DNA from: an uncultured Bacilli bacterium
GTDB taxonomy: Bacteria > Bacillota_I > Bacilli_A > RF39 > UBA660
Assembly (NCBI GenBank): GCA_947627965.1
Contig: CANQYA010000026.1
Location: forward strand, 1 to 10,078
Direction of reading: 5' to 3'
DNA: 10,078 nucleotides
The notes beneath the pieces are model-generated. The model was not told the DNA's origin and ran no database searches. It saw nothing but the letters and a program-made list of their open reading frames with translations. This document shows, piece after piece, positions 1-9,842 of this stretch. A program made the translations under genes and the position numbers. How positions within the stretch are numbered: the first letter of the stretch is position 1; the number at the start of each line of letters is the position of its first letter.

Positions 1-1275
1 AAAGCCTGTATCAGCTATATAGCTGTCAAAATTTAATAAATTATTCTTATACCATCCTTCTAATTTAGTTTTAATATTGGAGTCCACTTCGTTCGCATGA
101 GCTTGTTCATATGAAGTTGAAAAATATCCTGCATGGATTTCCCCTCCCCATAATTGATAATTATTTTCGCTTTGCTTAGTTTGGGTTATTTTAATCATTT
201 GTACACATTTTGTACTTTGATTGCAACATGTATAGTAATTATGGTATGTTTCTGTATAAGTTCCATTTACTACTGGTTCAGATAAAGTATATACACCAGT
301 TTGGGAATTAAAAGTATAACTTTGTGACATCTTTACTGTTCCGGTGGTACTTGTCCATGCCCAACCACTATAATTACCTTTACCATCAGTATAATTATTA
401 GTTGGTGTACCATGCATATAACCACCAAAAGCATTATCACCCATCATCGAATTAAAAGGACTTGTTTCTATTCGAGTATTAGTTCCTGTATCAGTAGGTT
501 TCGTTCCCTGATAAATTAACCTTATACTTCCGTCCTCATTTATCCTTATTATTCTCCAATAATATCCAGCAAAAGATACATAGTTATTATCTACTGCACC
601 ACGGAAATAGTAAGTTACTCTATTATCTTCAGTATTTTTATTAGTATAATATAATCCTTTTCCATTACTATCACTACTTATTTGTGAGAAATTAATACCT
701 GTATCAGGTTCCTCAACATTATCATAAAGTATCTTTTGCGATAGTCTTGTTGGTATTATATCCGGTTCTTTTTCGGGCTTTTCTTTTAAATCTTGTATAT
801 ATGTTATATCTATTTGTAATTCATTATCTTTTAAATTAGGATCGTCTACTATTTCTCCATTATAACTTATAATTACATTAAATACTTTACTTTCACCATG
901 ACTTAGTTTATCTCCTTCTTTAATTCCACTTATTTCAAACTTTATCGCATCACTTCCTAACTCGGTTGCATTTATTTTATTTATAACTGCATTTAAACTT
1001 CCTTTATTCTCTACTGTTATTTCATAAACTATCTTATCTCCTGGCTTAGTAAAAGCAACATTGAAAGTAGCTAGGGTTCCTCTTGCTTTTGGGTCTTCTT
1101 TAACATTTACGCCACTAGTCTTTGATACTTCTTTTATATTAGTAAACAAAATATTCCAGGTACTTGTTATATTTGCTGTACCATTTATTTTAATATTAGA
1201 AATAAAAGCTGAGTATCCTATAGTCATAATAAGTATTGCTACACACATAGATAGTATTATTACTTTTTTATTCAT
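1..1275 (-). CDS. Surface-exposed protein, N-terminal part (runs off the window)
   Basis: An open frame of 425 codons runs from an ATG at 1275 to the left edge without a stop, so the C-terminus lies outside. A signal peptide or membrane anchor is visible at residues 4-23 (MNKKVIILSMCVAILIMTIG). Residues about 26-160 look like a beta-rich Ig-like region (FNVAFTKPGDKIVYEITVEN). After a charged, proline-containing linker (about 163-177) a second region begins, with the segment YVSFAGYYWRIIRINEDGS near 232-250 and IKTKLEGWYKNNLN near the edge. I recall this second type of region from large secreted proteins of uncultured Firmicutes; that is memory, not a search. Two adjacent cysteines and a third close by (TCCNQSTKC) could form disulfides. 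The start is supported by GGAG at 1286-1289 and AAGGA directly before the ATG. Expression is probably controlled by the promoter with the G10 spacer. Ligand and function are unknown. Confidence 0.85.
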   Translation of the reverse strand, partial: MNKKVIILSMCVAILIMTIGYSAFISNIKINGTANITSTWNILFTNIKEVSKTSGVNVKEDPKARGTLATFNVAFTKPGDKIVYEITVENKGSLNAVINKINATELGSDAIKFEISGIKEGDKLSHGESKVFNVIISYNGEIVDDPNLKDNELQIDITYIQDLKEKPEKEPDIIPTRLSQKILYDNVEEPDTGINFSQISSDSNGKGLYYTNKNTEDNRVTYYFRGAVDNNYVSFAGYYWRIIRINEDGSIRLIYQGTKPTDTGTNTRIETSPFNSMMGDNAFGGYMHGTPTNNYTDGKGNYSGWAWTSTTGTVKMSQSYTFNSQTGVYTLSEPVVNGTYTETYHNYYTCCNQSTKCVQMIKITQTKQSENNYQLWGGEIHAGYFSTSYEQAHANEVDSNIKTKLEGWYKNNLLNFDSYIADTGF

Positions 1276-1312
1276 TCCTTACCATCTCCGAATATATTAT
1301 TCTTTATAATAC

Positions 1313-1342
1313 ATTATACCCCCCCCCCTAGGGTTTTGGCAA
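1313..1342 (-). promoter_or_regulatory. SigA-type promoter with a G10 homopolymer in its spacer
   Basis: On the minus strand the -35 box is TTGCCA (1342-1337, 5 of 6 to consensus) and the -10 box is a perfect TATAAT (1318-1313). The 18-bp spacer is AAACCCTA followed by ten G (1328-1319). The expected transcription start is near 1306, giving a leader of about 30 nt before the surface-protein ATG. A G10 run is very unlikely by chance in such AT-rich DNA. Homopolymers in promoter spacers are known to change length by slippage and so switch or tune transcription, as in Neisseria porA and opc and, with poly-A, Mycoplasma hyorhinis vlp. At 18 bp the spacer is one above the usual optimum. That the tract varies here is inference. 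Confidence 0.75.
1319..1328. repeat. Mononucleotide tract, C10 on plus / G10 on minus
   Basis: Ten uninterrupted C on the plus strand, then TAGGG, so that the minus strand reads CCCTA and G10. It is the only long G/C homopolymer I see in the window and it lies entirely between the -35 and -10 boxes of the surface-protein promoter. Such tracts are prone to slipped-strand mispairing. Confidence 0.95.
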
Positions 1343-5429: not shown

Positions 5430-5785
5430 AAAAAAATAATACTTTATAAGCCATGTTCTGTTCCTATTGCTAGGCGACAAACATTTATCTACCATTACTG
5501 GTCCTTAACGCCGTTTGTTTCCTTTGTTAAAGCTCCCCTACCAAATTTGGGTTTCTCGCTCGCGGGGGTTGCCACGTTCCACTTTAGCCATTTCTAGCCT
5601 ATTCGTCACTTTGGTCCTTTATAACTACTATAATCATATCTATAGACTTAGATTATTTCGTTTCCGTTAGATTTCTCTACCTAAGGTTATTTTTTCCCTT
5701 AGCACGATCACTAAGAACATCACAGTTCTTGCGAGCATGGACTTTCCTCTACATATTTCTATATAGCGTTTGTCAAAGTATTATT
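5430..5785 (-). ncRNA. rnpB: RNase P RNA, bacterial type B
   Basis: This is the catalytic RNA of RNase P, which removes 5' leaders from pre-tRNAs. On the minus strand the universally conserved segment GAGGAAAGTCCATGCTCGC lies at 5749-5731 and the closing segment ACAGAACATGGCTTATAA at 5461-5444. The internal AAACCCAAATTTGGTAGGGG resembles the P15 loop region of Bacillus type B RNAs. The ends pair as P1: AATAATACTTT (5785-5775) with AAAGTATTATT (5445-5435), 11 bp. P2 is GACAAAC with GTTTGTC, and P3 is a short hairpin with a GAAA loop. About 350 nt is shorter than the roughly 400 nt of B. subtilis. A T run directly follows P1 on the 3' side. The 5' end overlaps the gpsB stop codon. Exact ends are inferred from P1 pairing. 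Confidence 0.95.
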
Positions 5786-7003: not shown

Positions 7004-9842
7004 AAAGAATAATGGGGTTACCTATCATAAAAAAACTAATTCTAACAATAGTAAAGAAAAGAAAGAAAGAAAAAAACAAAATAATTTTATTAAAGAATTA
7101 AAGAAAGATCCTAGTCTTTTAGTAATACTAATTATAGCTTTAATAGGTATCGTAGTAGCGTATTTTACGATAGGAAAGTTATTTACAGCTATTTTAGTAA
7201 TTGGTATTATTTTAATTCTTTTGATGTCTCATTTAATTCATATCATTAAAAGAAAGAAAAAATTACTAATAGTTGTCAATATCTTTTTGGTTATTATTCT
7301 ATTATGTTGTATCGGTGGTAGTATTGCGGTAGGATCGTTCCTATTATATGTAATTAAACAGGCACCTGAATTCGATGTAACACGTCTTGAACGTTCTGAG
7401 ACTACTTTAGTTTATGATATAAATAACAAATTAGTAGGAGAACTTGGTGCCGAAAAAAGAGAAAATATTACCTATGATCAAATTAGTCAATCATTTATCG
7501 ATGCTTTGATTGCTACAGAGGACTCAAGATTTTTTCAACACAATGGATTTGATGCGGCAAGATTTTTAAAAGCTTCTCTAGGTCAAGCTGCTGGTCAAGA
7601 TGCTGGTGGAGCTTCGACTATTTCAATGCAAGTTATTAAAACTAATTTTACTGATGCTAATATCACTAAAGGGTTACCTGGTATCATTCGTAAATTTACG
7701 GATATTTATATGGCTGTCTTTAAACTTGAAAAGAATTATAGTAAACAAGAAATTATCGAATTTTATGTCAATAATAACTATATGGGAGACGTTGCTCATG
7801 GTCTAGAGCAAGCTTCACAGACATATTTTGGAAAAACAGCAAGAGATTTAAACTTAGCTGAAGCTTCCCTTTTAGCAGGACTTTATAAATCTCCTTATAC
7901 TCTTAATCCTTATCTTAACCCCGAAAACGCTACAGCAAGGCGTTCACAAGTATTAAACCTTATGGTTTTACATGGATATATTACTGAAAATGAACGTGAT
8001 ATGGCTAATAGTATACCAGTTGAATCCTTACTAGTTGGTAAAAGTGCTTCTAATTATCAATATCAATGGTATATTGATGCGGCAGTATCAGAAATAGAAA
8101 ATAAATTTAATGTTAATGCTTATAATACACCAATGATTATTTATACTAATATGGACGCTAATAAACAAAAAGGTTTAGACGATATTGTTTATGGTAAAAG
8201 TTATAATTGGCGTGACGATAAAATGCAAACAGCTATTGCGGCAATCGACGTCGATACTGGTAAAGTTGTAGCTATAGTTGGAGGAAGAAATAAAGGACAA
8301 CGTATCAGCAATAGAGCTATTGAAATGAAAAGACAAATTGGTTCTACTGCTAAGCCAATATTTGACTATGCTCCTGGTATGGAATTCCTTAACTGGTCAA
8401 CTTATACGATGTGGGAAGATAAAGAGTATTATTACTCATCTGGTCAACCTATGAATAACTCTGACCGTCAATATATGGGTTGGTTAACGACGAGACGTGC
8501 CTTAGCATTCTCGCGAAACGTACCTGCCCTACAAGCTTTCCAAGCTTTAGCTAAAAATAATGTCGATGTTATTAAGTTTGTTACTTCTTTAGGAATAACA
8601 CCTGAAATCGAGGGTGGTAAACTTCACGAAGCCCACTCTATCGGTTCATTTAATGGTTCTAACCCATTAGAGATGGCAGCTGCTTATGCGGCATTTGCTA
8701 ACGGTGGAACTTATTATAAACCTTATTTCGTTAGTAAAGTTGTCTTTAGAAATACAGGTACAGAATATGAATTTAAACCTGAAGGTAATAAAGTAATGAG
8801 TGATTCTACAGCTTTCATGATTACTGATTGCTTAAAATCAGCCGTTAATGAAGGTGCCAGTGGTGCGGCTAAAGTTAGTGGTGTCAATGTCGCTGCTAAA
8901 ACAGGTACTACTAACTTCCCTGAAAGCTTATTAGTAAGTGCTGGAGCTCCATTCGATTCAGTAAACGATGCATGGATTATAGGATACGATCCTGAATACT
9001 CAATCGGTATGTGGGTTGGTTACGACGACTTTAAAGATGGTCACTTAACTCCTGAGTCGGCTACAACGGAACGTGCTAGAATATTTAATGCTGCTGGTAA
9101 TGCTGTATTCAATAAAAACGGTCAAGATTTTAAAGTTCCTAGCAGTGTTGTTTATTCAGCTGTCGAATTAGGTACTTACCCTATTTCGCTACCAGGTCCT
9201 GATACACCACAAGATATGATTACTTACGAATACTTTAAAGCAGGAACTGAACCTACCGAAGTATCAACTAAATTTACTAAACTTAAAAATGTTACTAATC
9301 TAAAAGTTACATATAATCCAAGTACTTTAACTGTTAACCTATCATGGGATGAAGCTAAAAAACTGCAAAACGAACAAAGTAGTTACGGTGACTTTGGTTA
9401 TAATGTGTATAAAGATAATGAGCTTCTAGGATTTACAACAGATAACTTCTATGAAATTTCTGATATTGAAGATCCATTTGGTACTTATAAAGTTGTTACT
9501 ACTTATGAAAAATATAATTCTTCCGATAGTCCTGGTGCTACATATAAATTAGTTGATGAAGTTAGCTATTCTTCTGAATTATTGGTACCTGCTGAAAACC
9601 GATATAAAGTTGGAGATAATTTAGAAAGTTGGGATTTAAAACCTTCTAAAAGCGATTTAAAAGTATATGCTGACGGCGAAGAAATAACTAACTTTACAGT
9701 AACAATATCAATTAAAAATACTAAAAATGAAGTTATGGCTAGTGTCGATACGACAGCTAAAGAAACATTTACTATTACTTATACAGTAATGGTCGAAGAA
9801 AAAGAAATTGGTACAATGACACGAACGATAATTATAGAATAA
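6990..9842 (+). CDS. ponA: Class A penicillin-binding protein (PBP1 type)
   Basis: A bifunctional peptidoglycan synthase that polymerises glycan strands from lipid II and cross-links their stem peptides outside the membrane. In the 950-aa protein, a basic cytoplasmic tail (1-42) is followed by about three hydrophobic helices (roughly 43-63, 64-86 and 92-122), then a GT51 glycosyltransferase domain (about 150-325) with the catalytic glutamate in ATEDSRFF (E177) and GGASTISMQ. The transpeptidase domain (about 410-705) carries SxxK as STAK (S452-K455), SxN as SRN (508-510) and KTG (637-639). The C-terminus adds a fibronectin III-like region (about 758-865) and a beta-rich tail (868-950). Class A PBPs normally have one membrane helix; three still place the catalytic domains outside. 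The start overlaps recU by 14 bp, suggesting translational coupling. A strong terminator follows. Confidence 0.96.
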   Translation: MKKNKKNNGVTYHKKTNSNNSKEKKERKKQNNFIKELKKDPSLLVILIIALIGIVVAYFTIGKLFTAILVIGIILILLMSHLIHIIKRKKKLLIVVNIFLVIILLCCIGGSIAVGSFLLYVIKQAPEFDVTRLERSETTLVYDINNKLVGELGAEKRENITYDQISQSFIDALIATEDSRFFQHNGFDAARFLKASLGQAAGQDAGGASTISMQVIKTNFTDANITKGLPGIIRKFTDIYMAVFKLEKNYSKQEIIEFYVNNNYMGDVAHGLEQASQTYFGKTARDLNLAEASLLAGLYKSPYTLNPYLNPENATARRSQVLNLMVLHGYITENERDMANSIPVESLLVGKSASNYQYQWYIDAAVSEIENKFNVNAYNTPMIIYTNMDANKQKGLDDIVYGKSYNWRDDKMQTAIAAIDVDTGKVVAIVGGRNKGQRISNRAIEMKRQIGSTAKPIFDYAPGMEFLNWSTYTMWEDKEYYYSSGQPMNNSDRQYMGWLTTRRALAFSRNVPALQAFQALAKNNVDVIKFVTSLGITPEIEGGKLHEAHSIGSFNGSNPLEMAAAYAAFANGGTYYKPYFVSKVVFRNTGTEYEFKPEGNKVMSDSTAFMITDCLKSAVNEGASGAAKVSGVNVAAKTGTTNFPESLLVSAGAPFDSVNDAWIIGYDPEYSIGMWVGYDDFKDGHLTPESATTERARIFNAAGNAVFNKNGQDFKVPSSVVYSAVELGTYPISLPGPDTPQDMITYEYFKAGTEPTEVSTKFTKLKNVTNLKVTYNPSTLTVNLSWDEAKKLQNEQSSYGDFGYNVYKDNELLGFTTDNFYEISDIEDPFGTYKVVTTYEKYNSSDSPGATYKLVDEVSYSSELLVPAENRYKVGDNLESWDLKPSKSDLKVYADGEEITNFTVTISIKNTKNEVMASVDTTAKETFTITYTVMVEEKEIGTMTRTIIIE

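Follow-up and report, generated by a model that had tools for sequence, protein, structure and literature searches.

The closest described systems are surface-protein genes with a repeat in the promoter. In Neisseria meningitidis porA, a tract of 9–11 G lies between the -35 and -10 boxes and expression is reported to be graded by length (PMC3639595), with surface expression down 2-fold when 11G becomes 10G and 13-fold at 9G. In Treponema pallidum, several surface genes (tp0126, tprL and tprE/G/J) have promoter poly-G tracts; according to PMC7864442, the tp0126 promoter is strongest when the boxes are 17 bp apart, and the tracts of tprL range from 7 to 11 within isolates. In Mycoplasma gallisepticum, every promoter of the large vlhA family has a variable repeat; initial reports had a single member expressed at any one time, and later work cited in the same source (PMC6258824) found further members expressed too. 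Neisseria opc also has a homopolymer in its promoter, a poly-C tract that encompasses the -35 box. In open-access articles, switching by poly-G or other repeats was described chiefly in pathogens among the matches listed, and none of those matches reported it for uncultured Bacilli. A word search of a 2025 review of phase variation found no mention of poly-G, homopolymeric or Firmicutes.

The window analyzed here (10,078 nucleotides) is a whole contig (C26) of an 891,957-bp draft genome (G000) with a completeness of 67.65%. An earlier note on this DNA had pointed to a G10 tract in a promoter spacer about 40 bp before the ATG of a signal-peptide protein. This arrangement was confirmed on the minus strand, where the sequence and a promoter scan gave a TTGCCA -35 box (1337..1342), an 18-bp spacer (1319..1336) made of AAACCCTA followed by the G10 tract (1319..1328), and a perfect TATAAT -10 box (1313..1318). 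The element matched the consensus at 11 of 12 positions, with the TG extension absent; the same spacer element occurs in relatives, and a TTG lies within range in 66 of 69 promoters assembled from the genus. The ATG at 1275 is 37 bp downstream of TATAAT on the minus strand and opens an exported-type protein, and it is preceded by a ribosome-binding-site-like CGGAG (1286..1290) that is present before paralogues too. Promoter-like sites in general were not enriched in the window (3 found, shuffle mean 3.2). The G10 tract occurs once in the window and is far above chance expectation, with a mean of 0.01 across 200 dinucleotide shuffles. As in porA and tp0126, a homopolymer of slip-prone length separates the two boxes; unlike in opc, a clear TTGCCA stands upstream of the tract. 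By the 17-bp optimum of tp0126, the window promoter would be a single base away from the strong register, and the remark that loss of one G would give 17-bp spacing is apt for this copy.

The downstream gene (1..1275, minus strand) runs for 425 codons and is open at the contig end; a complete paralogue on C107 encodes 579 aa. Matches to the protein family numbered 27, 48, 99, 51 and 34 in this genome and its congeners (G000–G004). A Pfam search of the exported protein family returned no family above cut-off, and an NCBIfam match to TasA (E 0.0019) fell far below cut-off, as did matches to repeat domains. AlphaFold2 was run on 13 paralogues; the model considered here, that of the C58 copy and not of the window protein, had a mean pLDDT of 58.9, with a hydrophobic helix at the N-terminus, a beta-sandwich scoring about 80 and poor modelling over the C-terminal half. 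Searching the PDB with this paralogue model gave generic beta-sandwich matches and one hit with E < 0.001 and a low TM-score. Because the paralogue model is of low confidence, the PDB matches are generic and the TasA match is below cut-off, we describe the product only as likely to be a surface protein. Three paralogues in G004 (L071, L081 and L086) have a common N-terminus and different C-termini; for two of them the contig stops short of the promoter, and the promoter of the third has only G3. SipW-like genes of other subfamilies (the G004 C20 cluster and G003 C28) had no G tract upstream.

The earlier note had recommended looking for other surface-gene paralogues whose promoters have a tract in the same place; the outcome was strongly positive in this genome, in its congeners and in the family. 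All ten G8+ runs in G000 lie within a TTG-N-G-run element, eight in the form TTG..AAACCCTA-Gn and two, both on C4, as TTGCCAAACCTTTA-G10. TATAAT directly adjoins the run in six of the ten and comes after TGG in one (C99), and the contig end cuts off the -10 region on C89 and C101. The genes behind the C21 and C75 runs are paralogues of the window gene. The C8 run is followed by an exported-type protein that is cohesin-like by reading of the sequence and has no Pfam match, the C99 run by a hybrid histidine kinase with a receiver domain, and the C4 runs by small genes, with a weak WXG100 match nearby that stayed below cut-off (E 0.007); C46, C89 and C101 stop before any downstream gene. Many paralogues of the family have their own repeat-bearing promoter, which makes vlhA the nearest repertoire model, although the vlhA repeat (PMC6258824) consists of GAA units located upstream of the core promoter, with activity at 12 units, and is not a spacer homopolymer. 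On C4 (L033), two copies of a small-gene operon with identical G10 promoters form a 288-bp exact repeat (8024-8311 and +1593).

Several G000 contigs break off at the tract or shortly downstream of it, and on C75 (L037) a G12 run (1309-1320) leads straight into a paralogue at around its codon 7, with no -10 box or start codon, through either deletion or misassembly. Both features would be expected if the tracts were artefacts of short-read assembly at G runs. That explanation is nevertheless highly improbable, as a G8TATAAT search of the family gave 353 sites from many assemblies against 0 for the reversed control pattern in every one of 386 genomes, and the element also occurs in named genomes from many submitters.

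With the exact motif ACCCTAG7 or AAACCNTAG6, the element would have seemed a species oddity, as it was found in the window's genome only (one of five genomes in one search and one of 386 in another). This idea was dropped once the left flank was relaxed, which revealed the wider element. Congeners have the same promoter layout before paralogues, with CCGTA (G004), CCGAT (G003) or TTTCCT (G002) as the left flank in place of the CCCTA seen here; the flank varies between species, and the G run persists. In G001, three starts were found among ten upstream regions, with no clean tract, and a separate scan found four tracts, three of them interrupted. The start filter of this upstream-region survey overlooked many starts, and the survey is therefore not a full census of the congeners.

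Across the family, the 353 G8TATAAT sites are spread over 49 of 386 genomes and 31 of 150 genera, and the remaining 337 genomes have none. One locus each from 30 of the 49 carrier genomes provided 33 tracts, 30 of which have an ORF downstream; as judged by reading N-termini, these ORFs encode SipW/TasA-like, prepilin-like and other exported proteins, two ABC-ATPases and some others. One 1.3-Mb genome (G162) has 76 sites, many of them spaced at roughly 1.1 kb within arrays that encode a single exported family; the other three members of its genus included in the search had none. Over the N-termini printed, proteins from two family loci (L173 and L174) match those of L262 (Lapin-004__bin24) and L228 (S21_Bin6), labelled by their submitters 'uncultured Bacilli bacterium' and 'Bacillota bacterium', respectively. 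These submitters' labels give the lineage, and the setting differs from that in Treponema: spirochaete outer-membrane proteins there, and exported-family paralogues with relatives labelled Bacilli or Bacillota here.

This distribution bears on the idea that the cassette was merely co-copied with duplicating paralogues and that the tract is now functionless. The 5' leader and N-terminus are indeed conserved along with the promoter. However, the element also precedes the hybrid histidine kinase on C99, the other exported protein on C8 and the small genes on C4, it lies family-wide before prepilin-like, exported and ABC-ATPase genes as identified by N-terminus, and the G runs remain where flanks have diverged. 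We regard co-copying as very unlikely.

In the 21 carrier genomes for which both were counted, there were 305 G8TATAAT sites against 503 G8+ runs (for G004, only the runs were counted). The ratio was high in G162 (76/79), G136 (34/35), G003 (28/35), G002 (15/19) and G000 (6/10) and low in G135 (15/52) and G074 (5/46). Nine genomes that lack G8TATAAT together have 81 G8+ runs, and TATAAT does not directly follow any of these. In one of these nine, G008 (L376-L381), seven of the eight runs seen are G8-G9 runs that have fixed flanks and stand at a distance of 14 bp before TATAAT; they occupy the place of the -35 box within a longer conserved motif and resemble the opc type more. Thirty stretches with G9TATAAT (L177-L206) were found on viral contigs; no viral contig had the genus-type motif, in a collection that may omit records close to this genome. 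TTGACA-N-G8+-TATAAT promoters (L207-L286) occurred in records with labels including Clostridia, Saccharibacteria, Spirochaetia, Streptobacillus, Streptococcus and Helicobacter, among others, and often precede exported-type proteins.

We then compared spacer lengths. The 69 genus promoters comprised 67 from a pattern scan and two that were added, and the three without a TTG in range were dropped, leaving 66. The scan required six pure Gs before TATAAT and so misses sites with G at the first position or near contig ends; a G18 copy (L384), an interrupted copy (L127) and a G3 copy (L096) stand outside the count. Spacers of 17, 18, 19, 20 and 21 bp occurred 4, 19, 31, 10 and 2 times, so that 62 of the 66 are off 17 bp and, by the tp0126 rule, 60 lie one to three bases from the optimum. 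One 17-bp promoter was present in each of G000 (C21), G002, G003 (C31) and G004, amounting to 1/7, 1/15, 1/29 and 1/11 of their promoters, and none in G001 (0/4). Given four such sites among 62, the conditional chance probability of one per genome is 0.06, so the pattern is only a hint. The 17-bp spacing arises from a left flank shorter by one base, and not from the G run, on C21 and C31, and from a shorter G run in G002 and G004.

The same avoidance was seen outside the genus. A scan of named genomes, with a searchable spacer range of 11–20 bp, gave 80 loci from at least 119 stretches and 86 distinct sites; among the matches listed, spacers of 14 to 20 bp occurred 1, 10, 14, 3, 21, 28 and 9 times, forming two modes at 15–16 and 18–19 bp with unrelated left flanks. 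Tract-free TTGACA-N-TATAAT controls peaked at 17 bp (4/12 at the same named loci and 15/32 at other loci, including viral ones), compared with 17 bp in 4/59 tract sites of the other collected loci; these control sets are small and the spacer sets partly overlap. Depletion was weaker in a phylum sample of 392 genomes, 14 of which provided 25 sites (including one site from the window's genome); there, spacers of 15, 17, 18, 19 and 20 bp occurred 2, 4, 7, 9 and 3 times (17 bp in 4/25). Spacers of G-tract promoters therefore under-use the 17-bp register. An optimum shifted to 18–19 bp for G-rich spacers is disfavoured by the 17-bp optimum of tp0126 and by the bimodal named-genome set, since one shifted optimum would not give two modes. 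Compensation between the non-G part of the spacer and tract length was also considered and set aside, the correlation in the named-genome set being weak (Spearman -0.20, P 0.065).

Tract lengths, which come from consensus assemblies and may be one base off, differed within the genus and were nearly fixed in genomes of two other genera. Pure tracts ranged from G9 to G14 across the 66 genus promoters and varied both among paralogues within a genome and among species. The five most alike G003 pairs matched at 67 or more of 69 flank bases (97% identity or higher); in two of these pairs the tracts were one G apart and in three they were equally long. The one-G differences imply that length shifts on a timescale of few flank substitutions. 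Eight of the 66 promoters had tracts interrupted by A or T with a total length of 11–12 and both boxes intact, so slip-proneness is not strictly conserved. In G162, 60 of the 63 distinct sites among the 76 end in G9, two in G8 and one is interrupted; a script placed 49 spacers at 19 bp, three at 18 bp and one, before a prepilin-like gene (L370), at 17 bp, and for the remaining ten a tie led it to another -35 box, although by eye these ten also contain TTGCAA at 19 bp. In G136, all seven tracts seen were G10. A paralogue promoter on G004 C1 (L096) has only G3 and an 11-bp spacer, and is perhaps a dead or locked-off copy.

The near-fixed 19-bp spacing in G162 and G136 would suit a static promoter class, in which a fixed G-rich spacer of 18–19 bp, structural or regulator-bound, co-regulates genes and length differences are neutral drift. 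Two further features are consistent with it: the interrupted tracts still total 11–12 bases, and seven of the eight G008 runs seen belong to an extended conserved motif and lie 14 bp before TATAAT. A static class would not readily account for the two spacer modes with unrelated left flanks in named genomes, nor for pure tracts 9 to 14 long in otherwise similar genus promoters, and poly-G promoters elsewhere (porA and tp0126) are length-responsive according to the papers cited above. We consider this explanation improbable, though a real competitor.

The best explanation, to which we assign a probability of roughly 0.65, is a slippage switch of the porA/tp0126 type acting over a repertoire of paralogues and mostly resting in a weak register. 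The G run would serve as the slippage-prone spacer of a sigma-A-type promoter, and gain or loss of one G during replication would alter the distance between the -35 and -10 boxes, with 17 bp as the strong register and 18–20 bp or 15–16 bp as weak ones. As many members of a large, variable family of exported proteins have their own copy of the promoter, each cell might express a changing small subset. Slippage within the population, its effect on transcription, surface exposure of the products and a benefit to the cell are all presumed in this proposal. In porA, by comparison, a single gene is involved and both switching and its effect on expression are proven; here, many paralogues are involved and are known from sequence. 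The more specific version, a stochastic repertoire with one or few members on, in which tens of exported surface-protein genes have poly-G spacers one or two bases off 17 bp and single slips switch members, is a tentative idea that we would doubt rather than accept.

The phase-variable reading in the earlier note was thus borne out in part. Tract-bearing paralogues, their varying lengths and the predominance of off-17 spacers support the slippage switch. A fixed tract length, which that note had named as evidence against switching, is nearly what was found in two other genera of the family, those of G162 and G136, before other genes. These near-fixed tracts, the interrupted tracts, the equal G003 pairs, the two 17-bp promoters that owe their spacing to the left flank, the weaker depletion in the phylum sample, the presence of MutS and the 337 family genomes without a site count against a switch. 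Loss of mismatch repair was rejected as a cause, as a MutS match was present in 11 of 11 genomes tested. Near-fixed lengths, interruptions and the presence of MutS are compatible with slippage that is slow, with gene conversion, with a shared resting state or with a static class. In G001, which is 76% complete, the MutS match (C6:37859-38398) has an internal stop; its G8TATAAT count is the lowest of the four congeners for which sites were counted.

The observation is confirmed and is far larger than first noted. This kind of mechanism is already known, and we found no account of it at such scale in such bacteria. If the slippage switch is correct, uncultured bacteria with small genomes vary their surfaces in the manner of pathogens, and the TTG-N-G8+-TATAAT signature could map switchable genes in metagenomes, with the off-17 bias as a test that needs assemblies alone. 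Elsewhere in the window, a full-length class B bacterial RNase P RNA lies at 5442-5781 on the minus strand.
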